Shown: piece by piece, positions 100-34,590 of the stretch
Layout: every line of letters starts with the position of its first letter
Numbering within the stretch: the first letter of the stretch is position 1
Source: Steroidobacter sp.
GTDB lineage: Bacteria > Pseudomonadota > Gammaproteobacteria > Steroidobacterales > Steroidobacteraceae
Direction: 5' to 3'
Assembly: GCA_025929585.1 (NCBI GenBank)
Contig: JAICPY010000037.1
Span: 1 to 35,616, forward strand
Length of the DNA: 35,616 nt
Translations under genes and position numbers: made by a program
The notes under the pieces: model-generated
Database searches by the model: none
The model's input: only the letters and a program-made list of their open reading frames with translations
What the model was told of the DNA's origin: nothing

Positions 100-108
100 G
101 GTCGGAAG

Positions 109-229
109 CGGGTCGTGACTAGTGACTAGCGGGTAGGAAGAGATGGCTAGAGGTGAGCTATGACATGTGCGGCACAGATTGAAAGGCAGAGCCTGCCTTA
201 CGACCCGCGCCCCGCGAGTCACGATTCAC
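109..229. repeat. Boundary inverted repeat A between cysD and cysN (GTGACTAGCGGGT family)
   Basis: The left arm at 109-134 carries GTGACTAGTGACTAGCGGGT. The right arm at 200-229 is an imperfect reverse complement (ACGACCCGCG... CGAGTCACGATTCAC). The left arm starts 10 bases from the cysN start codon and the right arm ends next to the cysD stop codon (231-233), so the arms bracket the whole intergenic gap. The same word recurs in the much better matched element at 13511-13775. It may act as a hairpin in the cysDN transcript; that role is inferred. Confidence 0.6.
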
Positions 230-230
230 T

Positions 231-1133
231 CTAAAAGTATCCTTCCTGCTTTTTCTTCTCCATCGAAGCGCTGCTGTCGTGGTCGATGACGCGGCCTTGG
301 CGTTCGGAGCTCGTGGTCAGCAGCATCTCTTGGATGATGGCGGGCAGTGTGTCGGCGCGGCTTTCAACGGCGCCGGTGAGCGGGTAACAACCCAACGTAC
401 GGAAACGCACCCAGCGCATTTCCGGCTTCTCTCGTTCCTTAAGAGGCATGCGATCATCGTCGACCATGATCAGAGCGCCATCGCGCTGCACGACGGGACG
501 GGGTTGCGAGAAATACAGGGGCACGATCGGGATGTTCTCCAAATAGATGTACTGCCAGATATCCAGCTCGGTCCAGTTCGACAGCGGAAAGACGCGCAGG
601 CTCTCGCCTTTGTTCTTTCGGGCGTTATACAAACGCCACAACTCCGGCCGCTGGCGCTTCGGATCCCACCGGTGCTGCGCGGAGCGGAACGAGAAAACCC
701 GCTCTTTGGCTCGCGATTTCTCTTCATCACGCCTGGCGCCGCCGAAGGCAGCGTCGAATCCATACTTGTCCAAAGCCTGCTTGAGGCCTTGAGTCTTCAT
801 GATATCCGTATGTACGGCCGAGCCATGCGTGAAGGGGCTGATCCCCTTCGCCAAGCCGTCCTGATTGATGTGAACCAGCAGCTCCAAACCGAGTTTGCGC
901 GTCGTCTCATCCCGAAACGCGATCATTTCTCGGAACTTCCAGGTGGTATCCACGTGTAGAAGGGGAAAAGGAGGCTTGGCGGGATAGAACGCTTTCATCG
1001 CCAAATGCAGCATCACGGAGCTGTCTTTGCCGATCGAATAAAGCATCACGGGGCGTTCGCATTCAGCGACAACTTCCCGCAGGATATGGATGCTTTCGGC
1101 CTCTAGGCGTTGCAGATGTGTCAGTCGGGTCAT
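231..1133 (-). CDS. cysD: Sulfate adenylyltransferase subunit 2 (CysD)
   Basis: This is a 300-residue protein with the family's usual length (about 300). The PP-loop is seen as SIGKDS at residues 33-38, followed by [12 protein letters not shown], and the protein ends in the typical basic tail [10 protein letters not shown]. CysD is the catalytic subunit of ATP sulfurylase, which acts in the cytoplasm with CysN in assimilatory sulfate activation. I chose the ATG at 1133 ([20 protein letters not shown]) because homologues start there. The frame stays open to 1244 with another ATG at 1187, but those extra residues ([10 protein letters not shown]...) look non-coding. cysN follows downstream after repeat A. 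No sulfur-starvation operator was recognised with confidence. Confidence 0.95.
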
Positions 1134-1473
1134 TTTCTCGAATGCGCGGTGCTTGCCGCCCTGGTCTCGGGTCGTCTTTTGGGTCATGCGTAACGCACCA
1201 TTGTGGGGGAAAGGTGCACATCTGCATATTTCAGGTGGTTCCAAACGGCTCGCACTTGGTTATAAGAGGGTCTGAAAGGCCCTGCCTGGTCAACGCCCGC
1301 CGCCTTGGTGCGTTTAACGGTGCAACGCGTCCGTTTGTTTCGCCGCTGCATCTATGACGTAAGGTTGAGGGAACGAACCAACGACGTCTGAAGCAATCTA
1401 CGACAATCTACGATAGGTGCGATGCCGCTCCAGGCTTGGGCTCGGAGCTCACGAGTCTGGTGCGGGATTTTTG
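1134..1473. other. Divergent intergenic region between cysD and the efflux operon
   Basis: This 340-base stretch has no convincing gene. It should hold promoters for cysD (leftward) and for the outer-membrane factor (rightward). On the minus strand a TATAAC-like -10 candidate lies near 1260. The only clear structure is the perfect tandem decamer at 1394-1413, listed separately. Frames running through it on both strands are extensions or shadows of the flanking genes. None of the boundary inverted repeats seen elsewhere is present. Confidence 0.5.
1394..1413. repeat. Perfect tandem decamer CAATCTACGA x2, possible operator
   Basis: CAATCTACGA occurs twice head to tail (1394-1403 and 1404-1413), 60 bases before the efflux operon start codon. 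One full helical turn between copies would suit a dimeric or cooperative regulator. No regulator gene for the pump is adjacent, so the role is a guess. Confidence 0.35.
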
Positions 1474-2952
1474 ATGCAAGAGGTTTCAGCGATTCTTCGT
1501 TCTGAGCGCCGGTTGTCCGTGTGGGCGCCGCTTTTCGCCTTTTTACTGGCCGTATCGGTGATCGCGGGCTGCGCAGTCGGTCCCGACTATCGAGCTCCCG
1601 AAACTCAAACGCCAGATGAGTGGCATCTCGCCCCATCGGCCGGGGTGCGGGTGGAATCCGCGCAGGCTCCCTCGCTTGCGGACTGGTGGACGTCGTTCGA
1701 AGATCCGATGCTCTCGAACCTGATCGAGCGAGCAATCGCGGACAATAAGACCGTTCAGCAGGCACGTGCACGCGTCATCGAGGCGCGTGCCCGACGCGGC
1801 GCTGCCGCCGGCTCGTTTCTTCCTTCGATCAATGCTTCGGCGGGAGCGAGTCGAACCGATTCCGAGCGCCGCTTCATCGATCCCGATGACGATTTCGAAG
1901 TGGCATCTGCGGATGAAATCTACACCGCAGGGTTCGATGCCAGCTGGGAGCTCGATCTTTTCGGCGGCCAACGACGGGCCTTCGAAGCCGCAACCGCGCA
2001 ACTGGGCGCGAGCGAGGCGGATCTTCGCGACGCGCTCGTGACATTGCTCGGTGATGTCGCTCTGAACTACACGAACCTGCGCACGGCGCAAGCGAGGCTC
2101 GACTTTGCCGAACGTAACCTTGCAGCCCAAGCTGAGTTGTTGGACATCACGCACTGGCGTGCAGAAGCCGGGCTCGCGAGCGTGCTGGATGTCGAGCAGG
2201 CACAAACTAGTTACCAACAGACGCGCGCACAAATTCCTTCTCTCGAGTCGAGCTTGACGCAGGCACTGAATCGTCTGGATGTACTCACAGGACAAGTACC
2301 TGGATCGTTGTCCGTGCAGCTCAATGAACGCAAACCCGTGCCGACCGCGCCAGAGGAAATCGTCACGGGTGTGCCTGCAGACGTGGTGCGCCGACGTCCC
2401 GATATCCGAGCGGCCGAGCGCCGGCTTGCAGCACAGAGCGCTCAAGTGGGTGTTGCGACTGCGGCTTTGTATCCCAGTCTTTCACTGAGCGGATCGATCG
2501 GTTTGCAGTCGTTGAACGCGAGTGATGTGCTGGATGGATCGCAAACAGATCGGCTCGGCCTGTCATTGCGAATCCCATTGTTTGCTGGTGGCGCTTTGCG
2601 CCAGAACCTGCGCGCGCAATACGCCGTGTTGGATCAGGCTTTCGCGACTTACGAGGCAACCGTGCTGGCTGCGTTCGAGGAAGTCGAGAACGCGTTGATC
2701 GCATGGACGACCGAGCAACGTCGCCGCGAAGCACTTGGCCTGGCGGTAGAGAGCGCGCGGCGCGCTCGTGAGCTGGCGCTTGTCCAATACAACTCCGGCC
2801 TGGTCGATTTTCAAACCGTCCTCACCGCCGATCGTCAGCTCATCTCACTGGAAGATTCGCTTGCCGTCAGTGATGGCGAGCGCACGGCCAACCTCGTCCG
2901 GCTTTACAAGGCCCTCGGCGGGGGCTGGTCGGTTTACCCCGCGGCACCCTAG
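1474..2952 (+). CDS. NodT-family outer-membrane efflux lipoprotein (TolC-like)
   Basis: This 492-residue protein starts with a lipoprotein signal peptide: a basic n-region (residues 7-13), a hydrophobic stretch about 15-28, and lipobox VIAGC followed by AVGPDYRAPE, the standard opening of NodT/OprM-type factors. Two outer-membrane efflux domains follow, with characteristic PDIRAAERRLAAQ and ALYPSLSLSGSIG segments. It should form the trimeric outer-membrane channel for the exporter encoded next. The ATG at 1474 was chosen because it puts the signal peptide at the N-terminus; a GTG at 1417 in the same frame would add 19 unlikely residues. The gene for the membrane-fusion protein begins 7 bases after its stop, indicating one operon. 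Confidence 0.92.
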   Translation: MQEVSAILRSERRLSVWAPLFAFLLAVSVIAGCAVGPDYRAPETQTPDEWHLAPSAGVRVESAQAPSLADWWTSFEDPMLSNLIERAIADNKTVQQARARVIEARARRGAAAGSFLPSINASAGASRTDSERRFIDPDDDFEVASADEIYTAGFDASWELDLFGGQRRAFEAATAQLGASEADLRDALVTLLGDVALNYTNLRTAQARLDFAERNLAAQAELLDITHWRAEAGLASVLDVEQAQTSYQQTRAQIPSLESSLTQALNRLDVLTGQVPGSLSVQLNERKPVPTAPEEIVTGVPADVVRRRPDIRAAERRLAAQSAQVGVATAALYPSLSLSGSIGLQSLNASDVLDGSQTDRLGLSLRIPLFAGGALRQNLRAQYAVLDQAFATYEATVLAAFEEVENALIAWTTEQRRREALGLAVESARRARELALVQYNSGLVDFQTVLTADRQLISLEDSLAVSDGERTANLVRLYKALGGGWSVYPAAP

Positions 2953-2959
2953 ATAATTC

Positions 2960-4375: not shown

Positions 4376-5103
4376 ACAGCGCGCACTCACCTGCGATGAT
4401 CGAGCTTTCGCAAGTCACCAAATTCTATGGCGAAGGCGAGGGCGAAGTTCGCGCACTGCGCGGCATCGATCTGCGTATCGAAGCTGGTGAGTTCGTCGCT
4501 GTGATGGGGCCCAGCGGCTCCGGCAAGTCCACTTGCATGAACATTCTCGGCTGCCTCGACACCCCGACATCGGGACACTATCGATTCCTCGGCGTGCCAG
4601 TCGGTGAAATGAGCGCGGATCAGCGTGCGCTACTACGTCGCAACTACCTCGGTTTCGTGTTCCAGGGATTCAATCTGCTCAGCCGAACGACGGCACTGGA
4701 GAATGTCGAGTTGCCACTTGTCTATCGTGGTCTGCCTGCTGCTGAACGTCATGTACGTGCGAAGAAGGCATTGCTCGAAGTCGGTCTAACAGGCCGCGAA
4801 TCGCATGTGCCGAGCCAATTATCTGGAGGTCAACAACAGCGCGTCGCAATCGCACGAGCGATTGTTTCGCAGCCGCGCGTTTTATTCGCCGATGAACCCA
4901 CCGGCAATCTCGACAGCGCGACCAGTGTCGAGATCATGAAGCTGCTGACAGCGCTCAACGAGCAGCGCGGCATCACCATCGTGATGGTCACGCACGAGCC
5001 CGACATTGCCGCTTGGACGCACCGAGTTGTGAAATTCAGAGATGGACTGATCGAGAACGATGAAGTTGTTCGCCGCTCCGAGTCTGCGGTCCGTAGTCTG
5101 TAG
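4372..5103 (+). CDS. MacB/LolD-type ABC transporter ATP-binding protein
   Basis: A complete 243-residue nucleotide-binding subunit. It shows Walker A GPSGSGKST (residues 46-54), the Q-loop region FQGFNLL, ABC signature LSGGQQQRVAIARA, Walker B VLFADEPTGNLD and the switch histidine in VMVTHEP. The ATG overlaps the adaptor stop; a second in-frame ATG at 4396 (MIELSQVTKF) is possible. In E. coli MacB the ATPase and permease are one polypeptide; here they are two genes, as in the LolD/LolC or YvrO-like layout. The last residues (SAVRSL and stop) are encoded inside the left arm of an inverted repeat, so the C-terminus may have been replaced by repeat sequence. Confidence 0.93.
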   Translation: MNSAHSPAMIELSQVTKFYGEGEGEVRALRGIDLRIEAGEFVAVMGPSGSGKSTCMNILGCLDTPTSGHYRFLGVPVGEMSADQRALLRRNYLGFVFQGFNLLSRTTALENVELPLVYRGLPAAERHVRAKKALLEVGLTGRESHVPSQLSGGQQQRVAIARAIVSQPRVLFADEPTGNLDSATSVEIMKLLTALNEQRGITIVMVTHEPDIAAWTHRVVKFRDGLIENDEVVRRSESAVRSL

Positions 5104-5180
5104 TCCGCAGCCAGATGAAGCCTGCGGCACTCGTACGAGCAACTCTGGCCTGCAGACTACGGACTGCAGACTAAGGACTG
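5081..5180. repeat. Boundary inverted repeat B (GTCTGCAGTCCGTAG family)
   Basis: The left arm at 5081-5110 and right arm at 5150-5180 are imperfect inverted copies built from permuted words of the type GTCCGTAGTCTG and GTCTGCAG. A six-base inner extension GCCAGA/TCTGGC lies inside. The left arm covers the last codons and TAG stop of the ATPase gene; the right arm ends 7 bases before the permease ATG. The RNA could fold into a hairpin between two subunit genes and tune their ratio (inference). Related arms occur at 6409-6438 and 16241-16343. Confidence 0.65.
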
Positions 5181-5187
5181 TACAGCC

Positions 5188-6399: not shown

Positions 6400-6408
6400 A
6401 GGAGACGG

Positions 6409-6438
6409 AGTCTGCAGTCCGTAGTCCTTGGTCTGCAG
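6409..6438. repeat. Solo boundary-repeat arm C (GTCTGCAG family)
   Basis: A single copy of AGTCTGCAGTCCGTAGTCC continuing to TTGGTCTGCAG begins 10 bases after the permease stop. Its 22-base core differs at one position from the left arm at 16241-16271, about 10 kb away, but no inverted partner is visible before the next gene. It may be a decayed or half element. Confidence 0.55.
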
Positions 6439-6505
6439 CGGCATAAGATGTCGGCGCTCCATTTCAGCCAAGGAACGAACGAAGCGGCTTCGTAGTTGAA
6501 GCCCA

Positions 6506-7318: not shown

Positions 7319-7322
7319 CGCA

Positions 7323-7880: not shown

Positions 7881-8119
7881 AGGAGAGAAGGCGATAGGGG
7901 ATAGCGGATAGGGGATAGTTTTAAATAGGCGCGAGTCAGGATACACAATCGCCGCGTGCTCATCTTCCTGGGGCTTTTCCATAGGTGTTGAAGATTATTT
8001 GCAGTGTAGATTCTTCTCAGCGACACATTTGGGATGGCCAACAAGGTCGCTTACATGGAGAATCATTCTTCTTCGACCATCCCCTATCCGCTATCCCCGA
8101 TCGCCTTCTCTCTCCTATG
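7878..8119. repeat. Boundary inverted repeat D, shared leader of two divergent genes (GGATAGC family)
   Basis: The left arm at 7878-7914 and right arm at 8081-8119 are inverted copies with one mismatch and one two-base indel over about 37 bases, including both start codons. Each gene is therefore preceded by the same leader, reading CCCCTATCCGCTATCCCC then a CTTCTCTCCT-type pyrimidine tract and ATG. About 166 bases of unrelated sequence lie between the arms. The word GGATAGCGGATAGGGGATAG recurs at the end of the caspase-like gene (34493-34522). Confidence 0.85.
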
Positions 8120-8950: not shown

Positions 8951-8952
8951 TA

Positions 8953-8967
8953 GGAGCGTACCGCTCC
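8953..8967 (+). terminator. Short hairpin after fghA
   Basis: GGAGCG-TAC-CGCTCC directly follows the fghA stop codon. It is a perfect six-base stem without a following T run, so it is at best a weak or factor-dependent terminator, or a 3'-end stabiliser. Confidence 0.35.
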
Positions 8968-9033
8968 ACAAGGACCCCCGCGTAAAACTCGTTGCTCACT
9001 TTCGAGCGATGAGCTCTACGCGAACACTCTCGA

Positions 9034-10221
9034 ATGCCACCTCTGCAAAGGTTTCCGCGCTGGCTGTTACTGATCGGAGCAATGACTGCCGTCGGTCCGG
9101 TCTCGATCGATATGTACTTGCCTGGGTTCCCGGCTATCGAACGCGAGTTCGCAGAGCAGGGAATCGAGAAGACCATGTCGGCTTATCTGATCGGCATCGC
9201 GCTCGGGCAACTCATTTATGGCCCGTTGAGCGATCGCTTCGGACGCAAGCCGCCGTTGTATGCCGGATTCACGCTCTACGCGTTGGGTTCGTTCGGCTGC
9301 ACTTTGGCGACAGATATGTCGATGCTGATGTTAATGCGCGTGCTGCAGGCGCTAGGTGCATGCGGGGGAATGGTGATCGGCCGGGCGATCATTCGCGATC
9401 GCTGTGAGCCGCATGAGGCGGCGCGCGCTTTTTCGATTCTCATGGCGATCGTGTCGGCGGGGCCGATTCTTGCTCCGAGCATCGGTGGCTTGGTTGTAAC
9501 AGGCTTTGGCTGGCGCGGAGTTTTCGTCTTTCAGATGGTATTTGCGCTCCTGCTGTTGATCGCCATGCACGTAGTGCTCACCGAAAGTCGCGACCCACGT
9601 TCGATCTCGCCCTTTAGCGTGCCGACGATCACGCTCAACTATCGCAGTTTGATGCGCGATCGGACGTTTCTCGGTTACACGCTCGCAGGTGCGTTCGGGA
9701 TGGCCGCCCTATTTGCATATGTAACCGGCGCACCGGCGGTATTGATCGAGGGATATGGGTTGTCGGCACAGCAGTTCGGCTGGCTGCTGGGCGCCAATGG
9801 CTTCGCCTTCATGGCGGCAAGCCGCATCAACATCGTCGAGCTTCGAAAGAAAAGCCCCAGCGAGCTGTTAGCACGAGCTATCTGGGTGCCCGCGGCGGTC
9901 GGAGCCGTCCTGGTTGTACTGACGCTCGTCTTTCGCGTGCCGCTCTGGCTGTTCGTGGCGCTGCAGCTATCTTTCTTCGTGAGTGTCGCGCGCGTAACCC
10001 CGCATGCGGCAGCGCTCGGCTTGGGCCCTTACGCGCACATTGCCGGCGCGGCCTCCGCCATGATGGGCGCACTTCAATCTCTCATTCCAATGTTGGTGGG
10101 TTTTGCGCTTGCCTATTTCAATAACAGTGAACCTACTACACTCGCTGTGATGATGACGATCGGTGCGCTCGGCGCCGGCGTCAGTTACGAGTGGGGAAGA
10201 CGGGGACGGGTGATGAGGTGA
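9034..10221 (+). CDS. Bcr/CflA-family multidrug exporter (MFS, DHA1)
   Basis: A 395-residue major-facilitator protein with about 12 predicted membrane helices. The first helix is followed by the Bcr/CflA hallmark VSIDMYLPGFPAI (residues 23-35), and motif A is GPLSDRFGRKP (63-73). RVLQALGACGGMVIGRAIIRD matches the family's motif B/C region. It should export hydrophobic drugs or dipeptides by proton antiport across the inner membrane. The ATG at 9034 gives the family's usual N-terminus. The final residues (GRRGRVMR, stop) enter the left arm of inverted repeat E. It is followed convergently by osmC. Confidence 0.92.
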   Translation: MPPLQRFPRWLLLIGAMTAVGPVSIDMYLPGFPAIEREFAEQGIEKTMSAYLIGIALGQLIYGPLSDRFGRKPPLYAGFTLYALGSFGCTLATDMSMLMLMRVLQALGACGGMVIGRAIIRDRCEPHEAARAFSILMAIVSAGPILAPSIGGLVVTGFGWRGVFVFQMVFALLLLIAMHVVLTESRDPRSISPFSVPTITLNYRSLMRDRTFLGYTLAGAFGMAALFAYVTGAPAVLIEGYGLSAQQFGWLLGANGFAFMAASRINIVELRKKSPSELLARAIWVPAAVGAVLVVLTLVFRVPLWLFVALQLSFFVSVARVTPHAAALGLGPYAHIAGAASAMMGALQSLIPMLVGFALAYFNNSEPTTLAVMMTIGALGAGVSYEWGRRGRVMR

Positions 10222-10311
10222 TGAAGTGATGAAGTGATAAGGTGATGAAGCCAGAAGGCTTTTCTTCCAGCTTCTGTCGCCATCACCTTATCACTTCATC
10301 GCCTCATCACC
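10209..10311. repeat. Boundary inverted repeat E (GTGATGAA family), convergent genes
   Basis: The left arm at 10209-10247 and right arm at 10281-10311 are inverted copies. After removing one extra eight-base unit from the left arm, 30 of 31 bases match. The loop is about 33 bases and contains a further CCAGAAG/CTTCTG pairing. The left arm contains the TGA stop of the exporter; the right arm ends 5 bases from the osmC stop codon on the other strand. It could act as a bidirectional transcript end, but there is no T run. The same word family recurs at 20051-20141. Confidence 0.85.
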
Positions 10312-10316
10312 GCGCG

Positions 10317-11271: not shown

Positions 11272-11285
11272 TGGATGGGTGTACT

Positions 11286-11421
11286 GGTGAATGGGTGTAG
11301 GCGTGTAACGTCAGATAGTGGCGATGGCGGTTCGCGTGAACACAGACAAGATACGTGAGTGTCAACAGCGCCTACAACACCTCTCTGACCTCCTCACGTT
11401 ACACCTCTACACGTTTTCACC
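11286..11421. repeat. Boundary inverted repeat K between gabD and the YhfA-like gene (GTGTAGGCGTGTAA family)
   Basis: The left arm at 11286-11311 and right arm at 11396-11421 match at 21 of 26 positions as inverted copies. The right arm is 5 bases from the gabD stop codon; the left arm is 14 bases from the start codon of the YhfA-like gene. The loop is about 84 bases. Related words occur at 14446-14530. Confidence 0.75.
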
Positions 11422-11426
11422 TCTAA

Positions 11427-13513: not shown

Positions 13514-13561
13514 AGGGAAGTGAGTCGTGACTAGCGGGTCGCGGGTCGAAAGAATGCGGTA

Positions 13562-13575
13562 GTTACAAGTGTAAC
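13562..13575. promoter_or_regulatory. Palindrome GTTACA-AG-TGTAAC, possible operator
   Basis: A perfect six-base inverted repeat with a two-base centre lies in the divergent def/mocA-like interval, 49 bases upstream of def. It is the size of a typical dimeric repressor site; no regulator is implicated. Confidence 0.3.
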
Positions 13576-13713
13576 GCGCGAGTAGGGCGGTAGTGTCAGA
13601 TCGCCACCGGAGACTCGGCGCCAAAGTTGGGGCGAGCAGTGCGTAGGTTCTTCTTCCCACACTAACGTTAAGCGTTCATCCGCATTCGAGAACGAAAAGT
13701 TCCTAGCACCCCG

Positions 13714-13719
13714 TATAAT
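13714..13719 (+). promoter_or_regulatory. Candidate -10 box for the MocA-like gene
   Basis: A perfect TATAAT lies 54 bases before the ATG at 13773. No good -35 hexamer is found 16-18 bases upstream, so the assignment rests on the -10 alone. Confidence 0.3.
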
Positions 13720-13772
13720 TCCTGTCTTGCTCTTCATGCTACCCGCGACCCGCTAGTCACGACCCGCTTCCC

Positions 13773-14853: not shown

Positions 14854-14898
14854 AGGTAACGAAGTCGTGACGGAAAGTCCATTCTGACTTCGTCACCT
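14854..14898. repeat. Boundary inverted repeat L (GTGACGAAG family), convergent genes
   Basis: AGGTAACGAAGTC at 14854-14866 pairs with GACTTCGTCACCT at 14886-14898 (12 of 13 bases) across a 19-base loop. The right arm is 3 bases from the AraC-family stop codon, and further GTCACGCCGTCGCC words continue into that gene's last codons. It could end transcripts from both sides, though no T run is present. Confidence 0.65.
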
Positions 14899-14901
14899 TC
14901 G

Positions 14902-15879
14902 TCACGCCGTCGCCTCGTCCTTTGCTAAGACCTTCGCGGCAATCTCCGTCCTTCTTCTTCCATACCTATATTGTCCGGGCGCCACGTTGCGTTTGCGCCG
15001 GAAGGCCTTCGCAAAGGCCGTCTCTGAAACATAGCCCACGCGTCCGGCGATTCTGGCAACCGGTTCCACGGATTCGCGCAGCAATTTCGCGGCGAGATCC
15101 ATACGCCAGCGTGTGACGTACGCGAGTGGCGGCTCCCCAACCAAGTCGGTGAAGCGTTTTGCGAATGCAGCCCGCGACATTGCGACAGATCGAGCCAACG
15201 ATTCTACGGTCCAGGGCGCCTGCGGGCGTTCGTGAATCTGCGCGAGCGCTTTGCGGATCTGAGGATCGCGCAACGCTCCCAGCCAGCCTGCACTGCCTTC
15301 CGGTTGATCCCGCAACCAGGCACGCAGGATATAAACGAATAATGCGTCTATGAGTTTGGGGACGACGAGCTCGCTGCCGGCTTCTCGGCCGCCGGTCTCC
15401 TGCCCGATCAGGCGCAACAAACTTTGCAGCTCACTATCGCTATACGTTTGGTCGGCGGGCAAATGAATCACCGGCGGCAACAGCGATAAGAGCGGGTGCG
15501 TCGTCTCGTGTGAAAACTTATAAGTTGCACACTGCAACACGGTCGGTTCCACGGCGAGGTCCGCTCGTCCATCTCGCGGCGGAACGAGGTTACCTTGCGA
15601 ACGTGCCACGGCTTCTTCGTAGGGTTCCAAATGGCGGATTTCGCGGTCGGACGAAAGCGAATGTGCTTCGCCCGCTCCCAGCAACACGACATCACCGACG
15701 TTGAGGCGCACCAGTTCGCCATTGCTGCGGCGTAACCAACAAGTGCCGCGCTTTGGCATGTAGACAGCGGCATGAGGCTGTGCATCGATGTGGACGCCCC
15801 ACGGCGCGACGAATTCGTGCGATCCGAGCACGTGCGTGGCGAGATTGGTAACGTTGAGTACGTTTGAGAGGACGTCCAT
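14902..15879 (-). CDS. AraC-family transcriptional regulator with cupin sensor domain
   Basis: A 325-residue regulator. The N-terminal half (about residues 1-190) resembles the AraC-binding-like cupin domain (APWGVHIDAQPHAAVYMPKRG, LNVGDVVLLGAGEAHSL). The C-terminal 100 residues carry two helix-turn-helix motifs (WTVESLARSVAMSRAAFAKRF and VARIAGRVGYVSETAFAKAF ... RKRNVAPGQYR). It binds DNA and probably senses a small hydrophobic or aromatic ligand; the target is unknown. The ATG at 15879 gives the family's N-terminus. Three GAATGTTT repeats lie about 90-150 bases upstream and are candidate sites for autoregulation. No divergent target gene is found. Confidence 0.9.
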   Translation of the reverse strand: MDVLSNVLNVTNLATHVLGSHEFVAPWGVHIDAQPHAAVYMPKRGTCWLRRSNGELVRLNVGDVVLLGAGEAHSLSSDREIRHLEPYEEAVARSQGNLVPPRDGRADLAVEPTVLQCATYKFSHETTHPLLSLLPPVIHLPADQTYSDSELQSLLRLIGQETGGREAGSELVVPKLIDALFVYILRAWLRDQPEGSAGWLGALRDPQIRKALAQIHERPQAPWTVESLARSVAMSRAAFAKRFTDLVGEPPLAYVTRWRMDLAAKLLRESVEPVARIAGRVGYVSETAFAKAFRRKRNVAPGQYRYGRRRTEIAAKVLAKDEATA

Positions 15880-16027: not shown

Positions 16028-16240
16028 ACTCGACGCATGGATGAAGCGTGCTGCATCTATGTTGCGAGCACTCGTTCTACGGACTCGCGCTCATCTAGGT
16101 GATGACTGAGGAGTTGCATCGCGCGAAACAAGATCGCTTGCGCGTTCGAGTGCACGAGCTCACGCTTGAACGAGATTGGCGGACATGATGGGCTTGCGCC
16201 TCACGTTCGCCGATGTTCATGGCAGGCGGCGTGGAAAGCA

Positions 16241-16343
16241 AAGGTCCGTAGTCTTTGGTCTGCAGCCAGAGCGGATGAATAGCTCTCTTGTAGTTCGCCG
16301 CGGCCTTGGCCTCTCTGGCTGCAGACCCCAGACCGCAGACCTT
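16241..16343. repeat. Boundary inverted repeat next to the leftward receiver gene (GTCTGCAG family)
   Basis: The left arm at 16241-16271 and right arm at 16311-16343 match at 26 of 31 positions as inverted copies (core GGTCTGCAGCCAGAG), with a loop of about 40 bases. The right arm ends 2 bases from the receiver gene's stop codon. It belongs to the same family as the elements at 5081-5180 and 6409-6438. It could fold into a hairpin at the 3' end of the receiver transcript. Confidence 0.8.
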
Positions 16344-20050: not shown

Positions 20051-20141
20051 GGTGGATGAAGTGATAAGTGATAACGACGGATTGAGAAAAGGCAGTTTCC
20101 CATCTGTCGTCATCACTCTATCACGTCATCACCTGATCACC
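20051..20141. repeat. Boundary inverted repeat G (GTGATGAA family)
   Basis: The left arm at 20051-20080 (GGTGGATGAAGTGATAAGTG, then ATAACGACGG) and right arm at 20104-20141 are imperfect inverted copies with a loop of about 23 bases. The right arm ends 6 bases from the DUF3014 stop; the left arm lies 20 bases from the start of the next gene. It is related in wording to the element at 10209-10311. Confidence 0.7.
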
Positions 20142-20147
20142 TTTCCG

Positions 20148-24978: not shown

Positions 24979-25069
24979 AGTGTTTTGAAAAGGGCAAACC
25001 CGTCGCAAGATGGGGACGCAAAGCCACCGTTCCCGGATCGATTCGGGAAGGCCGGGCTGCCGAAGCACT
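24979..25069 (+). promoter_or_regulatory. Cyclic-di-GMP-I riboswitch (GEMM-I aptamer)
   Basis: The conserved GEMM-I core is present in order: GGGCAAACC, a P2 hairpin CCCGUC-GCAA-GAUGGG with a GNRA loop (24999-25014), GACGCAAAGCC (25015-25025), a P3 hairpin UUCCCG/CGGGAA (25030-25049) and the tetraloop-receptor side GGCCGGGCUGCCGA. P1 closes it by pairing AGUGUUUU (24979-24986) with GAAGCACU (25062-25069), eight pairs including two G-U. The family binds the second messenger c-di-GMP and controls motility, biofilm and surface-protein genes. The 3' strand of P1 is also in CGAAGCACUUCG (25061-25072), a possible competing hairpin. Confidence 0.95.
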
Positions 25070-25150: not shown

Positions 25151-25151
25151 A

Positions 25152-26369: not shown

Positions 26370-26376
26370 CCGACAA

Positions 26377-26405
26377 CGCCCGCACGTAAGATGCGGGCGT
26401 CTTTT
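26377..26405 (+). terminator. Intrinsic terminator 1 after the Ig-like gene
   Basis: CGCCCGCA pairs with TGCGGGCG across a seven-base loop, followed by TCTTTT, 7 bases after the stop codon. Confidence 0.85.
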
Positions 26406-26410
26406 CCGGA

Positions 26411-26441
26411 AGGGCCGGTACTGTGAGTACCGGCCCTTTTT
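26411..26441 (+). terminator. Intrinsic terminator 2 after the Ig-like gene
   Basis: AGGGCCGGTACT pairs perfectly with AGTACCGGCCCT across GTG, followed by a run of T. This 12-base stem is the strongest terminator in the window; two in a row insulate the riboswitch gene from the TauE-like gene. Confidence 0.9.
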
Positions 26442-26490
26442 CATTGGCGCGGCCGATCCTTCTCCCCGCGCTCACTCGTGACGTATGCTG

Positions 26491-26511
26491 TGTGATCTAA
26501 AAGAAATCACA
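26491..26511. promoter_or_regulatory. Inverted repeat TGTGAT-N9-ATCACA upstream of the TauE-like gene
   Basis: TGTGAT and ATCACA are separated by CTAAAAGAA, 10 bases before the start codon. The half-sites resemble CRP/FNR family half-sites but the spacing is too wide for CRP. It could be an operator or a chance hairpin. Confidence 0.3.
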
Positions 26512-26521
26512 GCCACTGCAC

Positions 26522-27301
26522 GTGCTAGATCTCCCGTTCGATTTCATCGTTGTATTGATTGCAGCCTTCGGGGCGGGACTCATCGATGCGATGGTCGGCG
26601 GTGGGGGACTGGTGCAACTGCCTGCACTGTTCGCGTTCTATCCCAACGTCCCTCCGGCCGCGCTACTTGGCACGAGCAAGCTCGCCGGCATCTTTGGCAC
26701 CGCTAGTGCGGTTTGGCGATACGCGCGTCGCGTGCGAATTCCGTGGCGAGCTTTGTTGCCTTTATCTATTGCCGTGCTCTGCGCCTCGTGGGTTGGAGCG
26801 ACTCTAGCAACTCGCGTTCCTGTGGAAGTCTTCCGTCCGCTCGTGCCCATCATGCTCGTAGCAGTGTTGATCTATACATTGTGGCGCAAGAATCTCGGCA
26901 CTGAACATACACCGCGAGCATTCACCGGCCGCCATCATTGGCTCGGCGCGACAGCGATCGCGGCAATTGGGTTCTACGACGGCTTCTTCGGTCCTGGAAC
27001 CGGCAGCTTTCTTATGATCGTGTTCGTTCGCTGCTATGGCTATGACTTTCTGCACGCGAGTGCCTCGGCGCGCGTTCTGAATGTCGCCGCAAATGGCGCA
27101 GCCTTGATCTATTTCAGCTCTCGTGGCTACGTCCTCTGGCATATCGGTGCAGCAATGGCCGTCTGCAACATCGCCGGCTCCTTCGTGGGCACACGCCTCG
27201 CCCTGCGCGGCGGCAGCGTAGTAGTACGCAAAGTCTTCATCGCCGTCGTATCGCTGCTGATTCTAAGGACAGCATGGGTGGCGATCGGAGGAAGCGGTTA
27301 G
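26522..27301 (+). CDS. TauE/SafE-family permease (TSUP), sulfite/organosulfonate exporter-like
   Basis: A 259-residue protein with about eight membrane helices arranged as the two TSUP halves. The first half has GAGLIDAMVGGGGLVQLPAL (residues 17-36) and LGTSKLAGIFGTASAVWRY; the second has GFYDGFFGPGTGSFLMIVFV, the classic paired signature. It moves small anions such as sulfite, sulfoacetate or related compounds across the inner membrane. The start is a GTG at 26522 with no clear ribosome binding site. A link to the sulfate-assimilation genes at the left end is tempting but unsupported. The stop codon TAG is provided by the first unit of inverted repeat H. Confidence 0.9.
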   Translation: MLDLPFDFIVVLIAAFGAGLIDAMVGGGGLVQLPALFAFYPNVPPAALLGTSKLAGIFGTASAVWRYARRVRIPWRALLPLSIAVLCASWVGATLATRVPVEVFRPLVPIMLVAVLIYTLWRKNLGTEHTPRAFTGRHHWLGATAIAAIGFYDGFFGPGTGSFLMIVFVRCYGYDFLHASASARVLNVAANGAALIYFSSRGYVLWHIGAAMAVCNIAGSFVGTRLALRGGSVVVRKVFIAVVSLLILRTAWVAIGGSG

Positions 27302-27472
27302 CGGTTAGCGGTTAGTCGGAACAAGGAAAAGCGCCGAATCCGTATTGCGGTCGCGTGAGTAACGCGCGTAGCGTCGAACCAGTAGCCACCAACGGCAGTA
27401 ATGAAAGAAACTGCCCTCTCGAGGGCGAGATCGCCCGCTCTGACTAACCGCTAACCGCTAACCGCTAACCGC
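27294..27472. repeat. Boundary inverted repeat H (GCGGTTA heptamer)
   Basis: The left arm at 27294-27319 has three tandem GCGGTTA units followed by GTC. The right arm at 27442-27472 is the reverse complement with four units. The left arm supplies the last codons and stop of the TauE-like gene; the right arm ends 12 bases before the SDR start. The loop is about 122 bases and includes a GGGCGA/TCGCCC hairpin near 27423-27436. The different unit number in the two arms suggests slippage. Confidence 0.85.
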
Positions 27473-27484
27473 TTCTTTCCTATT

Positions 27485-28312: not shown

Positions 28313-28320
28313 GGAGAAAA

Positions 28321-28513
28321 GTGACAGGTGACGAGTGACGGGCAAGAGAGACGAAGATTGCAGTGTGGATGTAGACCCATGACGCAGAGTCTTCCGATCC
28401 ACGCTCGTGTCGACTCGCAGCAGCGCGAAGAATGTTGGACGTTGGCAGTTGACATGCAGAGACAGACAACAAATTTTTGCCCGTCACCCGTCACCCGTCA
28501 CCCGTCACCCGTC
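28321..28513. repeat. Boundary inverted repeat I (GTGACGG heptamer)
   Basis: The left arm at 28321-28345 (GTGACAGGTGACGAGTGACG then GGCAA) and right arm at 28477-28513 (TTGCCCGTCACCCGTCACCC continuing with more CCGTCAC units) are inverted. The right arm is a cleaner tandem of the seven-base unit. The left arm starts 8 bases after the SDR stop; the right arm lies 27 bases from the stop of the convergent hydrolase gene. The loop is about 131 bases. Confidence 0.8.
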
Positions 28514-28540
28514 GAGTCCCCTGATCGCGTCGAAGGGCCG

Positions 28541-29344: not shown

Positions 29345-29630
29345 ACGCCCATTGCGACTTGCTATGAGGACGATGTCAACACATTCCAGCTTGCACCTTA
29401 GTCACCCGATAAATGTCTAAGTGAAACGGGTGCCAACCGTTGACTCCGAGACGCACCACACTCGCGCAATCGTAAAGAAATCCGACTGTCACTTTTGTCC
29501 GTTGCTCGAATATAGACAAAGCTGTTAGATAGCAGCGGTCGAACGCGCGCGAGACATCGAGAGAGCGTGTGCATCTCGGCGATAAATAATAGCTTCAACG
29601 CGTTCTCGCGCGGAAAACAAGGGAGAAGGG

Positions 29631-32600
29631 ATGAAGGTTCGGAGTGAATGCGGCCCAAGCCGCAGAGGCATAGGCATTGCGAGCGCGCTCCTGCTTGCGC
29701 TGGTTGCACATAATGCGAGCGCTGCGACTCCGCCCACGATTGGTGCGTCGCCTATTCTAGTGCAGATCCCGGAGCGGGATCAGTCGGTCACGATCAACGT
29801 ACGAGATATTGGCGCTGTCACCGGCACCGCACCTCTGCTGCTCGAGCCGCGTGCCCAAGTTTTGCTCAATGGCAGTCCCATTGGGCTGGTGGTAAGTGTT
29901 CTAGAAACGGGACCGGGTGCCGTCTGCATTCAGATCGGCAACGAAGGCAACTTCATTCCGCCTGTCGACGGTCCGGCAGAGTACGCGCTGGAATTTGGCG
30001 TTAGTAGCTTCAGCTCACAAACCCCAATTTTCGGCACCGTAGACATTCTGAATTCGCCAGGCCCAACGACAGATCCGCAGTCGCCTGCCTGCGGAGATCC
30101 GAACACGCCGCCGATCGCGAATGCGAGTAGCACGCAGCCTCAATTCAGAGAAGGAGAAGACATCATCCTGGATGGTTCGCTGAGCAATGATCCTGATAGC
30201 AGTGTGCCTGGCGACACCGTTCTTACCTATGAATGGAGCGGCGCCGATCTCCAGCTCCCCACAACCACAGATCCAACACTCTCCATCGGCTCTCTTCCGG
30301 TCGGTACATATACGTTTACGTTGGTGGTGACGGACGATTCCGGCACAGAGAACAATCGAAGCGAACCTACGACGGTCACCATCACCGTGCTGCCGAATGT
30401 CTTTCCGACAGCGAACGCCGGAGATGCGCAAACCATTGTGGATGTCGACGGCAATGGAGAAGAGCAGGTCACTCTGACGGGTTCGGGCACGGATGCGGAC
30501 GGCACGATCACGAGCTTCCAATGGTACTTGGGTGAGACCTTCTTGGGTGAAGGTCAAACCATCCAGACGATACTGCCGCTCGGCGTCAATGAAGTGAGGC
30601 TCGAGGTCCTCGATAACACTGAGCTCAGTGGATCCGATACGGTCATCATTACTGTTCGCGCGCCGCAACCCCCAACCGCGAATGCGGGCGAGGATCAGTC
30701 GCTTCAGGATCGCGATGGAGCACCGGGCGAGCTGGTGACTTTGACGGGTAGTGCCACGGTAGGCGAACCAGAAGGCACCATTGCCTCATACCAATGGTTC
30801 GCGAATGACAGCACGCTTGGCTCCGGCGCCACGCTACAAACTCGCTTGCCCGATGGCGTCAATCAAGTCGAGCTTGTCGTCACTGACGATCTGGGTCAAA
30901 CGGCTTCGGATACGGTGGTGATCACCATCGCAGATGCCTCTGTACCGACGGCCAACGCGGGTGCTGATCGGCGTATTGCAGATAGCGACGGTCAAGTGGG
31001 TGAGAACGTAACCTTGAACGCTTCCGCTTCGGTTGCGACGGGAGGTATCGCGTCCTATGAATGGCGTGACGAGCAGAACCAACAGATCGCAACTGGGGTG
31101 ACGCCGACAGTAAGGCTGCCAGACGGCGCGAATGTCATCACGCTAGTTGTGACGAACGATGCGGGCGTGAGCTCAACCGACACGGTCACGATTGATATTG
31201 ATGTCGCTGCGCAGCTACCGACCGCAAACGCCGGTGCTGACCAAAACATTTCGGACACGGATCGCGAGGAAGGCGAGCTCGTCACGCTCGTCGGCACAGG
31301 CACGGATCCCAACAATCAGACGCTGACTTATCAGTGGTCACTGCAAGCAGATCCAGTCGTGATTTTGGGCAATCAAGCAACCTTGGCAGTGCGGTTGCCC
31401 GATGGCGAGAACATCATCACTTTGCGTGTCGAGGATCCGGACGGCAATTTCGCCATGGACAGTACGACGATTGTCGTTGCTGCTCCCACGCCGCGTGTCG
31501 CGCTTGCTGAGCTACCGAATCTCACGACGAACAAGCGCGCTGTCGCGCTCGCGCTCGATCGAGCCTGCTTGGAGTTGGACGAGAGAAGCCGAACGGACAC
31601 GCAGCTGACGCAGGAGCAGCAAGCGATGCTCGATCGCTGCGATGGACTGTACTTCGATAATACGGCCGCAAACCAGTCGCAAGCCTTGGACGCTCTGGGC
31701 GCTGATGACTTCGCAGCCGCACGCACACAAACGCTGCTGTTCTCCAACACACTGTATGCCAGCGTGATGGATCGATTGGTGGCGTTGCGCGGTGGTGCGC
31801 GCGGACTGAGCCTCGCGGGATTGAATATCATCGTGGATGGCCAGAATGTTCCACTCGCGCAGTTGCAGCAAATGACGAAAAGTCTGCTCGGCGGTGGCGC
31901 GAGCAGCGATGCAGACAAGGCCGGCGGCCTACTCAGCGACAAGCTGGGTGTTTGGGCGCGAGGGAATTACAGCTTCGGTGAGAAGGACGAATCCGCGAGC
32001 AGCCCGCGCTTCGAGGCAGACCAGTGGGCGCTGATCGGAGGCATCGATTATCGGCTATCCCAACAAACCGTGATCGGCGCATCGCTCGCGTATGGACAAT
32101 CCGGCATCGAATTCGATCCGGCCGGAGAAGGTGCGCTCGATACCACTTCGTGGGCAGCATCCTTGTACGGTTCGCTATACGCGGCCAAGAATTTCTATTT
32201 CGATGCCATTGCGAACGTCGCGAACTCCGACTATGACGCACGGCGCAATATCACCTATGTAGACGGCAACGGGTTGGTGGATGCGGATGCGAACGGCACG
32301 ACCGACGGCATGACATTCAGTGGCGGGGTATCCGCGGGCTATGACTTCTTGCTTGGCCGATTCACGCTTTCACCCACGCTTGGCGCGTTCTATATTGATG
32401 CCACTATCGATAGCTTCACCGAAGCTGGAGCGGCCGGGCTCAACCTGATCTACGATGAGCAAAACTTCACCTCATTCACCGGTAATCTTGGGCTCAGGAT
32501 GACGTACTCCATGAACACCAATTGGGGTGTTTTGCTGCCGCATATTCGCGTCGATTACGTGCGTGAGTTCGAAGATGAGGTGGACGTATTCGGAGTGAGA

Positions 32601-32810
32601 TTCGCGGCGGATCCGAACGCGGCGAGCGCGCCGCCTATTTTGGTCGAAACCGATAATCCCGATCGGTCCTATTGGCGCTTAGCGACTGGCTTCTCCGCAC
32701 AGTTCGCGCACGGATTCTCCGGCTACGTAGAGTATCAGCGGCTGGAAAGCTTCGAGTTCATCAGCTTCGAGGACTTGAGCGTTGGATTGCGGATGCAGAA
32801 GAGTTTTTGA
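29631..32810 (+). CDS. Autotransporter-like surface protein with five PKD/Ig-like repeats
   Basis: A 1059-residue protein. A signal peptide (about 1-31, ending NASA) is followed by a unique N-terminal domain (32-155). Five PKD-like repeats follow at about 162-255, 260-343, 346-433, 437-522 and 527-615; most begin PTANAGxDQ and carry DxDG-type loops that may bind calcium. A helical linker (620-770) leads into a C-terminal beta-barrel (about 775-1059) that begins KLGVWARGNYSFG and ends in GLRMQKSF, with the terminal phenylalanine typical of outer-membrane barrels. The PKD passenger is probably displayed outside the cell. GGAGAAGGG lies just before the ATG. The caspase-like gene starts 46 bases downstream, implying an operon. 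Confidence 0.87.
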   Translation: MKVRSECGPSRRGIGIASALLLALVAHNASAATPPTIGASPILVQIPERDQSVTINVRDIGAVTGTAPLLLEPRAQVLLNGSPIGLVVSVLETGPGAVCIQIGNEGNFIPPVDGPAEYALEFGVSSFSSQTPIFGTVDILNSPGPTTDPQSPACGDPNTPPIANASSTQPQFREGEDIILDGSLSNDPDSSVPGDTVLTYEWSGADLQLPTTTDPTLSIGSLPVGTYTFTLVVTDDSGTENNRSEPTTVTITVLPNVFPTANAGDAQTIVDVDGNGEEQVTLTGSGTDADGTITSFQWYLGETFLGEGQTIQTILPLGVNEVRLEVLDNTELSGSDTVIITVRAPQPPTANAGEDQSLQDRDGAPGELVTLTGSATVGEPEGTIASYQWFANDSTLGSGATLQTRLPDGVNQVELVVTDDLGQTASDTVVITIADASVPTANAGADRRIADSDGQVGENVTLNASASVATGGIASYEWRDEQNQQIATGVTPTVRLPDGANVITLVVTNDAGVSSTDTVTIDIDVAAQLPTANAGADQNISDTDREEGELVTLVGTGTDPNNQTLTYQWSLQADPVVILGNQATLAVRLPDGENIITLRVEDPDGNFAMDSTTIVVAAPTPRVALAELPNLTTNKRAVALALDRACLELDERSRTDTQLTQEQQAMLDRCDGLYFDNTAANQSQALDALGADDFAAARTQTLLFSNTLYASVMDRLVALRGGARGLSLAGLNIIVDGQNVPLAQLQQMTKSLLGGGASSDADKAGGLLSDKLGVWARGNYSFGEKDESASSPRFEADQWALIGGIDYRLSQQTVIGASLAYGQSGIEFDPAGEGALDTTSWAASLYGSLYAAKNFYFDAIANVANSDYDARRNITYVDGNGLVDADANGTTDGMTFSGGVSAGYDFLLGRFTLSPTLGAFYIDATIDSFTEAGAAGLNLIYDEQNFTSFTGNLGLRMTYSMNTNWGVLLPHIRVDYVREFEDEVDVFGVRFAADPNAASAPPILVETDNPDRSYWRLATGFSAQFAHGFSGYVEYQRLESFEFISFEDLSVGLRMQKSF

Positions 32811-32856
32811 TTTGCAGCGAAACCTTGTTGAGCAACGAAGGAACGCACAATTGGAC

Positions 32857-34515
32857 ATGAAAAAGTATCCGTCAATCTCGCGTGTCATCGGACGGCTAGG
32901 TTTTATCGTTGCTCCGCTGGCATTGTTCGTCGCGTTCGCGGCCCATCCTGCCTCCGATAAAGAGGCCGCGACGAAGGGTATGGTTAAGCGCTCGGATCTG
33001 GAGATCGTGGATTGCCTATTGCCAGGCCAGGTCCGCCAGCTCGGAAACAGCAGCTTTCTTACTCAACGCCGTCCGATCAAGACGACGGTCGCTGAATGTT
33101 CGATTCGCGGTGGCGAGTACGTTGCTTACGATCGCGCGGATTTGAAGTCTGCCTTGCGCGTATGGCTGCCGTCGGCCGAGAGCGGGGACCCGGAAGCGCA
33201 AACGAACGTCGGCGATATTTACGAGCGCGGATTAGGCGTGGCGCCGGACCATACACTTGCGGCGCAGTGGTATCAGAAGGCCGCCGATCAGGGCTATTCA
33301 CGTGCTCTGTTCAATCTGGGCACGCTATTCGAGCAGGGATTGGGTGTCCCGCAAGATCAGCTCAAGGCCCTCAATCTTTATCGGCAAGCGTGGGGGCTGT
33401 CCGAAGACAACATCATTTTTACTTCCGCTGCCCAGCGTGAACAAGAAGCATTGCGCACGCAGTTGCAATCGGCGATCGCGGAGAAAGAAACCCAACTGAA
33501 CCTTCTGCAGAAGCAACTCAAGGAACTTCAAGACCAGCTAGCAAAACAACCTGTTGCGCAGAACCCGACGCCGGCAAGCGAGAACGCCGAGGTTGAAGCG
33601 CTGAAGAAATGGATCGCGCAGCTAGAGAGCGAGCGCCGCAAGAGCACCGAACGACTTGCCGGCATCCCGCGAACACGTACGCCGCAAGGTACGGAGATGC
33701 TGACGCCGATTCCACCTAAAGCGGATGAGCGCACGCTTGCGGGAATGAACTTCGGTCGCTACTACGCGATCGTGATCGGCAATCAGGACTATCAATCTAT
33801 CGAAGATTTGCAGACCCCGCGCTATGACGCCTCGCGCGCGGCTCGCATCCTCGCCGATAAATACGGGTTTATCGTGCAGGTGCTCGAAGACGCGAACGAC
33901 ATCACGATGCTCAAGTCCATCAACGATTTGAACGCCGTGCTCAAGCCCGAAGACAATGTGCTGATCTATTACGCTGGTCACGGCGCGCGGCTACAGAGCG
34001 GGCGAATGGAAAGCGGTTATTGGCTGCCGGTCAATGCGGAGGCTCCGCCGAGCGATACGTTCTGGGTGCCGAACGAGCAAATCACCGGTCATCTGGGACG
34101 CTTGCCGGCCAAGCGAGTGCTAGTCGTCGCGGACTCATGTTACGCGGGCTTGTTGTCGACGGACCCGAGCTATCTGTTCTTGAACAAGGACGTCGCGTAT
34201 TCGAAAGAGTACATCCAGTACAAACTGCCGAAGCGCTCTCGCCTGTTGTTGTCTTCCGGCGGAGATCGTCCGGTATTGGACGAAGGCAGCGGCGGCAATT
34301 CCGTCTTTGCCCGCGCTTTCCTAGATGAGCTCGAATCTAACGAGGGGATTCTCTCGACCCCAGAGCTCTTCAGCCGCATTCGCAAGCGCGTCGAAGGCGC
34401 TGCTGCGAAGAACAAGTTCGTGCAGACCCCCGAGTTCAAATCGATCAAAGGGGCCGGGCACGAAGTCGGTGATTTCTTCTTCGTGCCTAGACGGAGAGAA
34501 GCGGATAGCGGATAG
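32857..34515 (+). CDS. Exported caspase-like peptidase (C14) with Sel1 repeats and coiled coil
   Basis: A 552-residue protein. The N-terminus is basic, then a hydrophobic stretch (14-29) acts as signal peptide or anchor. Two Sel1-like repeats (about 109-181) include NVGDIYERGLGVAPDHTLAAQWYQKAAD. A Gln/Glu/Lys coiled coil follows (about 192-270), then the caspase domain (about 300-550) with the dyad His375 in YYAGHGAR and Cys428 in ADSCYAG, both intact. Such peptidases cut after Arg/Lys (metacaspase type) or Asp; specificity is not predictable here. ATG 32857 is used; a TTG six bases earlier has a better-spaced GAAGGA. The last residues (EADSG) are encoded by a repeat arm. Confidence 0.88.
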   Translation: MKKYPSISRVIGRLGFIVAPLALFVAFAAHPASDKEAATKGMVKRSDLEIVDCLLPGQVRQLGNSSFLTQRRPIKTTVAECSIRGGEYVAYDRADLKSALRVWLPSAESGDPEAQTNVGDIYERGLGVAPDHTLAAQWYQKAADQGYSRALFNLGTLFEQGLGVPQDQLKALNLYRQAWGLSEDNIIFTSAAQREQEALRTQLQSAIAEKETQLNLLQKQLKELQDQLAKQPVAQNPTPASENAEVEALKKWIAQLESERRKSTERLAGIPRTRTPQGTEMLTPIPPKADERTLAGMNFGRYYAIVIGNQDYQSIEDLQTPRYDASRAARILADKYGFIVQVLEDANDITMLKSINDLNAVLKPEDNVLIYYAGHGARLQSGRMESGYWLPVNAEAPPSDTFWVPNEQITGHLGRLPAKRVLVVADSCYAGLLSTDPSYLFLNKDVAYSKEYIQYKLPKRSRLLLSSGGDRPVLDEGSGGNSVFARAFLDELESNEGILSTPELFSRIRKRVEGAAAKNKFVQTPEFKSIKGAGHEVGDFFFVPRRREADSG

Positions 34516-34522
34516 GGGATAG
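34493..34522. repeat. Solo boundary-repeat arm M (GGATAGC family)
   Basis: GGAGAGAAGCGGATAGCGGA and the following TAGGGGATAG cover the end and TAG stop of the caspase-like gene. The wording matches the arms at 7878-7914 and 8081-8119, about 26 kb away. No inverted partner is seen before the next gene. Confidence 0.6.
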
Positions 34523-34590
34523 CCAGAGCGCACGAGCGCAATCCACTTCCCTCGAGCCTTTACGAAGAAAGAGGCGAGGGTTTGTATGCG

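Follow-up and report, generated by a model that had tools for sequence, protein, structure and literature searches.

The stretch of Steroidobacter sp. DNA analysed here (the window: the entire contig G000:C2, 35,616 bp, from a 5.13-Mb draft genome in 297 contigs) carries short hairpin-like elements, built from about 11 families of 7- to 9-nucleotide (nt) repeats and seated just behind gene ends, which by extrapolation number hundreds per genome. These inverted-arm elements are real, widespread and ordered, and they are not locus-specific. We directly observed the families, the inward pairing of arms of one family, the anchoring at stop codons, the differences between congeners at the same junction and the predicted folding. 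The elements are probably dispersed and similar to REPINs, the inverted doublets of repetitive extragenic palindromes (REPs), and of the same kind as the GGGNATC repeats of Xanthomonas, while being multi-family and mostly not quadruplex-forming.

Statistics for the source genome were taken from 41 stretches including the window (589,561 bp, about 590 kb of the 5.13 Mb). Of these, 28 (327,703 bp) form an unselected sample drawn by contig number, with a long contig supplying one of them, and 12 biased stretches, chosen for carrying repeat matches, were kept apart in the gap and model-scan counts; both sets were pooled for clustering, partner similarity, folding, tag and stop-distance, periodicity, and some orientation and position counts. 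Genes were called with a home-made codon-score caller, whose start positions are rough. Gaps of 40–1200 nt were scored for inverted arms of at least 18 nt with at least 80% complementarity, and in the unselected 328 kb such pairs occupied 28/192 gaps, compared with a mean of 0.1 after shuffling and 0/192 in coding pieces of the same lengths; extrapolation from this sample gives an estimated 440 or so pairs per genome. A first sample, partly picked for repeats, had pairs in 42/194 gaps (shuffled 0.05; coding pieces 1/194), the 12 biased stretches in 40/145 (coding control 1/145) and the window in 6/24. The initial annotation had reported inverted arms at a series of gene boundaries in the window, and eight of these loci are among the ten longest of 27 inverted-repeat pairs, with arms of 25–41 nt and 79–100% complementarity. 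Three further pairs (107-230, 14854-14898 and 20051-20141) had been read from the sequence, and arm models (described below) recovered both arms at the first and the right arm only at the other two. The genes of the window are ordinary bacterial genes by Pfam, and a search of the whole window with Rfam matched none of the elements, its sole match at gathering score being a riboswitch at 24984-25065.

The 148 arms of 74 pairs cluster into genome-wide families with a mostly fixed order of words, which we named A1 (GGATAG), A2 (GCGGTTA), B (GTGACGG), C (TCGTGAY and CGCGGGT), D (AGTCYGC), E (GTGATGNNN), F (GGGGGTA, with an inner ATGATYA word), G (GTTGACG), H (CTCGCAG), I (GTGACGAAG) and J (GTGTAAC). 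Partners share a cluster in 71/74 pairs; 13 of the 148 arms remained unclustered, two of them of the GTGTAAC (J) type, and the model for family J was seeded from letters of the window and of stretch L021. The words had initially been taken to be locus-specific, and this view gives way to about 11 genome-wide families, mostly with fixed order and period. Profile models of the 11 families, trained on the same genome and lacking congener-specific words, found 305 arms in the 590 kb, including 134 in the unselected 328 kb, where none was found after shuffling. The best period was 7 in 240 of the 305 arms, 8 in 35, 9 in 19 and another value in 11; each family has its own period (7, 8 or 9), the weakly periodic family H being the exception, and the number of tandem units differs between arms. 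The outward strand is G-rich in 285/305 arms, and G exceeded C in the left arm of 68 of the 74 pairs (below C in 4, equal in 2). On the loop side, G[TCA][CA]AGA was present in 71/148 inner windows, compared with 8.4% in shuffles and 3/148 outer windows, and G[TC][CA]AGA was present in the 30-nt loop-side tail of 154/305 arms, ranging from 14/15 in family F down to 0/14 in H.

Neighbouring arms less than 300 nt apart faced inward in 115 cases, outward in 2 and lay on the same strand in 26, and 108 of the 115 inward pairs joined arms of the same family. Pairs free of training arms (168 arms were non-training) gave the same picture, with 48 inward, none outward and 16 same-strand; 41 of the 48 inward pairs were same-family, versus about 12% expected by chance. 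Families do not cluster along the chromosome (17/129 neighbours the same, permutation p 0.23). A 29-mer of family F, allowing up to 3 mismatches, occurred at 56 sites in the whole genome (reversed control 0); 18 of 20 regions drawn from these sites held an inward pair, with arms 0–6 of 29 bases away from one reference word. At a separate locus (L243, G000:C111 near 48301), 12 copies of GGGAATC face 11 copies of GGGAGTC, different words that are each uniform in their own arm.

Enrichment at gene boundaries, which the initial annotation had proposed, was borne out, with 295/305 arms outside called coding sequences in the 590 kb sampled. A called gene lay behind 283 of the 305 arms, and the arm start was at a median of 5 nt from a stop codon (131/164 within −30 to 40 nt), versus 61 nt from a start codon (49/119 within the same range, start calls being rough). 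Among 56 tandem gaps with a pair, 51 had it nearer the upstream stop than the downstream start; in the 23 of at least 200 nt, the medians were 13 nt to the upstream stop and 122 nt to the downstream start, and 20/23 were nearer the stop (stop-distance, tandem-gap and folding figures include training arms). Orientation mattered as well: in the unselected sample an arm was present in 20/39 convergent, 30/103 tandem and 6/50 divergent gaps of at least 40 nt, and in 1/60 gaps below 40 nt. Arm ends had been described as lying at start or stop codons in all orientations alike; the stop side of this description holds, the equality of orientations does not. What anchors the elements is the stop codon and not any gene boundary as such, and arms that seem to bound a gap on both sides are the appearance of a stop-anchored element in an otherwise short gap. 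Four window arms overlap the stop codon itself (5081, 10209, 27291 and 34500), and the exception in position is the 16241 arm, with about 360 nt separating it from the called start to its left. In the 42 nt behind a stop, a mean of 2.06 reading frames was closed where an arm was present (124 stops) and 1.17 where it was absent (208). Predicted RNA folding of 40 sampled elements gave a mean z of −6.0, with 35 below −3. The elements and single arms of the window are the following.

107..230, arms 107-144 (+) and 196-230 (−): family C (TCGTGAY/CGCGGGT words), between the cysD stop and the cysN start; sequence reading and arm models.
5081..5179, arms 5081-5117 and 5147-5179: family D (AGTCYGC), between ABC ATPase and MacB-like permease genes, with the ATPase stop codon inside the left arm; inverted-repeat search (5081-5172) and models.
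6408..6439 (+): a single arm of family D, following the stop of the MacB-like permease gene; arm models.
7883..8112, arms 7883-7919 and 8076-8112: family A1 (GGATAG), divergent gap between AhpC-like and esterase genes; inverted-repeat search and models.
10209..10316: family I (8-nt GTGATGAA/GTGACGAAG words), convergent gap MFS/OsmC, the left arm overlapping the MFS stop; inverted-repeat search (10209-10311) and models.
11282..11425, arms 11282-11317 and 11390-11425: family J (GTGTAAC), behind the aldehyde dehydrogenase stop; inverted-repeat search (11286-11421) and models.
13515..13772, arms 13515-13554 and 13733-13772: family C, divergent gap between deformylase and MobA-like genes; inverted-repeat search and models.
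14854..14919: short, family I-like, convergent gap, the models finding the right arm only (14880-14919); sequence reading and models.
16238..16343, arms 16241-16274 and 16310-16343: family D, 2 nt from the response-regulator stop and about 360 nt from the next called gene; inverted-repeat search (16241-16343) and models.
20051..20142: family I-like (GTGATAA words), behind the stop of a DUF3014 gene, the models finding the right arm (20100-20142); sequence reading and models.
27286..27480: family A2 (GCGGTTA), the left arm overlapping the TauE stop and the right arm ending near the SDR start; inverted-repeat search (27291-27475) and models.
28313..28510: family B (GTGACGG), convergent gap; inverted-repeat search (28321-28501) and models.
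34500..34528 (+): a single arm of family A1 that overlaps the caspase-domain gene's stop; models.

Other features of the window include a PKD-repeat autotransporter gene followed directly by a gene with Sel1 repeats and a caspase domain (29631-34515). The riboswitch is a c-di-GMP-I-GGC match (RF03167, 64.3 bits, 24984-25065, + strand), ahead of or within the 5' part of a gene for a He_PIG/fn3 repeat protein. Near the contig end, at 35469-35495, the palindromic repeat GGGGACAGTCCCCT is present in about two copies and does not resemble the heptad arms. The start of another contig (G000:C73:1-168) is 99% identical to window 231-398 (cysD 3' part), a duplication or an assembly overlap.

Gene order is retained in the congeners. 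By the inverted-repeat criterion, pairs were present in 4/14 gaps of G002, 4/26 of G008, 1/17 of G007 and 1/19 of G011, and in none of the sampled stretches of G001, G003, G005, G006, G009, G010, G012 and G013. The arm models gave 13 arms for G007 (73 kb of syntenic contigs), 2 each for G013 (80 kb) and G008 (40 kb), and none for 220 kb from seven further congeners, and the family-F 29-mer was found 12 times in G007 and in none of 19 other genomes (G013 not among them). Small samples from 20 other genera belonging to the same family and order (20 stretches), surveyed for inverted repeats, contained 3 unrelated ones in 113 gaps.

At single junctions, the contents differ between congeners. The cysD-cysN, abcA-macB, osmC-g11 and g11-aldh junctions measure 0–6 nt in several congeners and are occupied in others, often by other words. 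The cysD-cysN gap is 0–3 nt in 5/11 relatives. In the other six it measures 68–117 nt: G007 has family F there and G002 has GCGCAAA words, G011 and G003 each have a single GTGACTGG-type arm, G013 resembles the window in its family-C-like words, and G005 shows no clear arms. The abcA-macB gap is 0 nt in 8/12 relatives, osmC-g11 in 4/7 and g11-aldh in 4/6, with family J in the g11-aldh gap of both G007 and the window; the deformylase/MobA-like boundaries (window 13515..13772, family C) carry family A1 arms in G008. When 20 elements of the source genome were sorted by eye against the corresponding G007 gaps, the same family was present in 5, another family or repeat in 7 and none in 8, and two of the three family-B cases among the same-family ones were decayed.

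Intergenic DNA outside the arms, in stretches of at least 60 nt, was conserved (z > 3) in 4/5 comparisons with G007 and 3/5 with G013, versus 1/16 loops with G007 (1/6 of loops of at least 60 nt) and 0/16 with G013, a contrast partly due to power as the loops are mostly shorter than the outside stretches. The exception is 27291-27475, whose loop resembles an arm-less G007 gap (z 4.9). For the ahpC-esterase gap, a 14-nt middle piece (z 4.1) is common to G007, which has family C arms, and G013, which has no clear arms; the window matches neither. GTCAGA/TCTGAC pairs 20–50 nt apart numbered 35 in the source genome versus 9 in the control and 20 versus 1 in G007; smaller excesses were seen in G002 (5/1), G003 (9/4), G011 (10/3), G012 (4/1), G038 (7/0) and G039 (15/8), the remaining genomes being near control, and among the listed matches those in G038 and several in G039 are palindromes of other kinds.

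The initial annotation knew of no named element with such an architecture; a published kind, the GGGAATC heptamers of Xanthomonas, comes very close to it in architecture. Rehm et al. (2015; PMC4692102) described GGGNATC heptamers for Xanthomonas and Nostoc that are mostly intergenic, have the G strand sense behind stops and antisense before starts, and are rare in divergent gaps; two Xanthomonas genomes contain 70 and 75 inverted pairs. The same paper also mentions three tandem heptanucleotides found in Calothrix. The Steroidobacter elements share with the GGGNATC heptamers G-rich 7-nt units, often four in number, a mostly intergenic position, the strand rule, inverted pairs and rarity in divergent gaps. 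They differ in having about 11 families side by side, among them several whose units are 8 or 9 nt long, in that most arms lack a G3 quadruplex motif, that the inner tag is partly common to the families, and that several junctions hold another family or nothing in congeners. Exact GGGAATC x3 matches occur at 15 overlapping places in the source genome (9 of the 10 listed belong to one array), and beyond it the word was found only in G404 of 368 other genomes of the class sample, where two of four listed loci show an inverted pair (genes uncalled there).

REPs, which show a 3'-end bias in convergent and unidirectional gaps and often supply the stop codon (Di Nocera et al. 2013; PMC3733652), and REPINs, in which the spacer of the inverted doublet is less conserved (Bertels and Rainey 2011; PMC3116915), resemble our elements in being inverted doublets with variable spacers, high copy number, several families per species and a position close behind 3' ends in convergent and unidirectional gaps, where the repeat often provides the stop codon. 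As in a REPIN, two inverted copies of one repeat enclose a variable spacer (108/115 inward pairs same-family; 18 unrelated loops). A REP, however, is an imperfect palindrome of 20–40 bp, whereas our arms are tandem heptads and mostly not self-palindromic: folding of 100 sampled single arms gave a mean z of −1.01, with 22 below −2, and families E (z −4.0, 6 arms) and A2 (z −2.3, 7 arms) are partly self-complementary. The REP end tag differs too, GTAG being at the outer end of 3/305 arms and CGTC of 1/305, with GTAG in the last 12 nt of 27. Moreover, unlike the REPINs described as linked to REP-associated tyrosine transposases (RAYTs), our arms had no linked RAYT that we could find in the source genome. 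No one consensus covers the set, which thus does not look like one classical family of REPs or of miniature inverted-repeat transposable elements (MITEs). The TAACTGA repeats of Beggiatoaceae (MacGregor 2015; PMC4679880) are likewise intergenic heptamer repeats near open reading frames, but consist of one word, placed for the most part immediately upstream of starts; the genome described has 169 direct-repeat sets and one 'indirect' repeat. Our literature searches, which covered open-licence papers, turned up no description of the multi-family heptad version. The short tandemly repeated repetitive (STRR) heptamers of cyanobacteria also form several tandem families per genome, as here; we know of no inverted, stop-anchored pairing among them.

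According to the REPIN-like reading, an element would be two copies of one family arm (about 30–40 nt) facing each other across a non-conserved spacer, each arm being a short tandem run of 7-nt (sometimes 8- or 9-nt) units with a G-rich outward strand and, in about half, G[TC][CA]AGA on the loop side. An activity acting in trans and recognising the arms would copy such elements around the genome, and they would settle or survive just behind stop codons, where little harm is done. In the transcript a long hairpin would be expected, either at the 3' end of the mRNA or in the space between cistrons. The tandem words would tend to close extra reading frames behind the stop. Mobility, RNA function and machinery other than the genome's one Y1 transposase are what we infer.

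Several results weigh against this reading. The two arms of a locus were no more alike than same-family arms elsewhere (within-family partner score 21.31 versus 21.34 for shuffled partners, 107 pairs, z = −0.10); true partners were less alike than shuffled ones among non-training pairs (37 pairs, z −3.4) and slightly more alike among training pairs, which had been selected for matching (65 pairs, z +1.9). The test omits families with fewer than three pairs and so covers 107/108 pairs, 37/41 non-training and 65/67 training. An arm's partner was its best match for 44/148 arms. The initial proposal that an arm resembles its own partner more than copies elsewhere, as if copied from it, finds no support in these figures, and arm-to-arm copying was rejected. 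The arms are not tuned to each other, and selection on pairing as such is not supported. Loop length has a median of 33 nt and reaches 174 nt. The loop sequences tell against the reading as well: the 18 family-F loops (29–133 nt), enclosed by closely similar arms, had no mutual similarity at E 0.05, and among the loops of the 74 pairs 3 short matches were found, with no recent whole-element copy seen. Fifteen of the family-F loops start with YMAGA and 16 finish with its complement. Shared loops as a mark of recent whole-element copying were rejected on both comparisons. Arms are common only in the source genome and G007, and the resemblance of the 27291-27475 loop to an arm-less gap fits an inserted module less well than arms placed around DNA that was already there. 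We found no arm-linked mobilising enzyme: the genome's one Y1 transposase gene has palindromes of its own, unrelated to the arms, and a search of the 75%-complete G007 genome found none. RAYT mobilisation by the sole Y1 transposase was rejected on the same grounds. Inverted ends as in MITE terminal repeats are present, and by eye, at the stop-start junctions where this was judged, no target-site duplication was clear. The only Y1_Tnp gene found in the genome is flanked by 22-nt inverted-repeat copies (L119, 143-218 and 2031-2106).

Local polymerase slippage, in which 7-mers containing a stop expand behind stop codons and are then copied in inverted orientation at that locus through a template switch, would account for the variable unit numbers, for the stop codon inside some arms, for the GGGAATC x12 and GGGAGTC x11 arms, as if each had been homogenised alone, and for the slight likeness of partners in the training pairs (z +1.9). 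Nevertheless, one fixed-order 29-mer recurs at 56 genome sites, and same-locus arms share a family with no extra likeness (z −0.10 over 107 pairs; z −3.4 over 37 non-training pairs), which contradicts a template switch, since that predicts the opposite; we consider slippage unlikely.

Bidirectional intrinsic terminators would explain the position behind stops, the arms in 20/39 convergent gaps of at least 40 nt and the strong predicted hairpins. However, of 108 elements only 5 have TTTT within 14 nt beyond the right arm and 6 beyond the left arm (on the other strand), elements occur inside likely operons (cysD-cysN, abcA-macB) and loops reach 174 nt. The candidate was rejected on the rarity of U tracts, and we find it distinctly improbable; Rho-dependent or RNase-blocking roles may apply. 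Invertible promoters, suggested by inverted arms around gaps, are at odds with loops that are so often short (median 33 nt).

We give still less credence to the idea of a new class of boundary element, in which a templated, word-specific activity would write arms one by one, and never the whole element, at the 3' ends of genes, with one template per family and a terminal tag partly common to them. If true, it would explain why closely similar arms enclose unrelated loops, and both sides of a junction could change family at once. A telomerase-like templated polymerase with one template per family that writes the arms separately onto the flanks of a break or gap, leaving filler or older DNA as the loop, appears very improbable. 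The G-rich strand does run 3'-ward into the gap from both sides (115 inward versus 2 outward), the inner tag is partly common across families, closely similar arms surround unrelated loops, arms are matched by family and not to each other, and one loop resembles an arm-less gap. Against it, no candidate enzyme was found, the single reverse-transcriptase (RVT_1) match in the genome having an in-frame internal stop, and REPINs with variable spacers give the same layout without a new enzyme (PMC3116915). The proposal that G-rich arms act as G-quadruplexes regulating expression, as for the Xanthomonas and Nostoc heptamers, agrees with the G-rich outward strand (285/305 arms) and with the published placement (PMC4692102), but we hold it to be hardly credible and rejected it as the common denominator, a four-tract G3 motif being present in 16/305 arms (B 11/45, A1 5/40) and absent from 9/11 families.

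Many word families with the same layout and placement in one genome make quadruplex formation unlikely as a common function. Our results suggest a wider kind of repeat, with the GGGNATC repeats of Xanthomonas as one of its members, and the orthologous stop-start junctions, empty or differently filled among congeners, make the arrival of such elements and their effects on operon expression directly testable.

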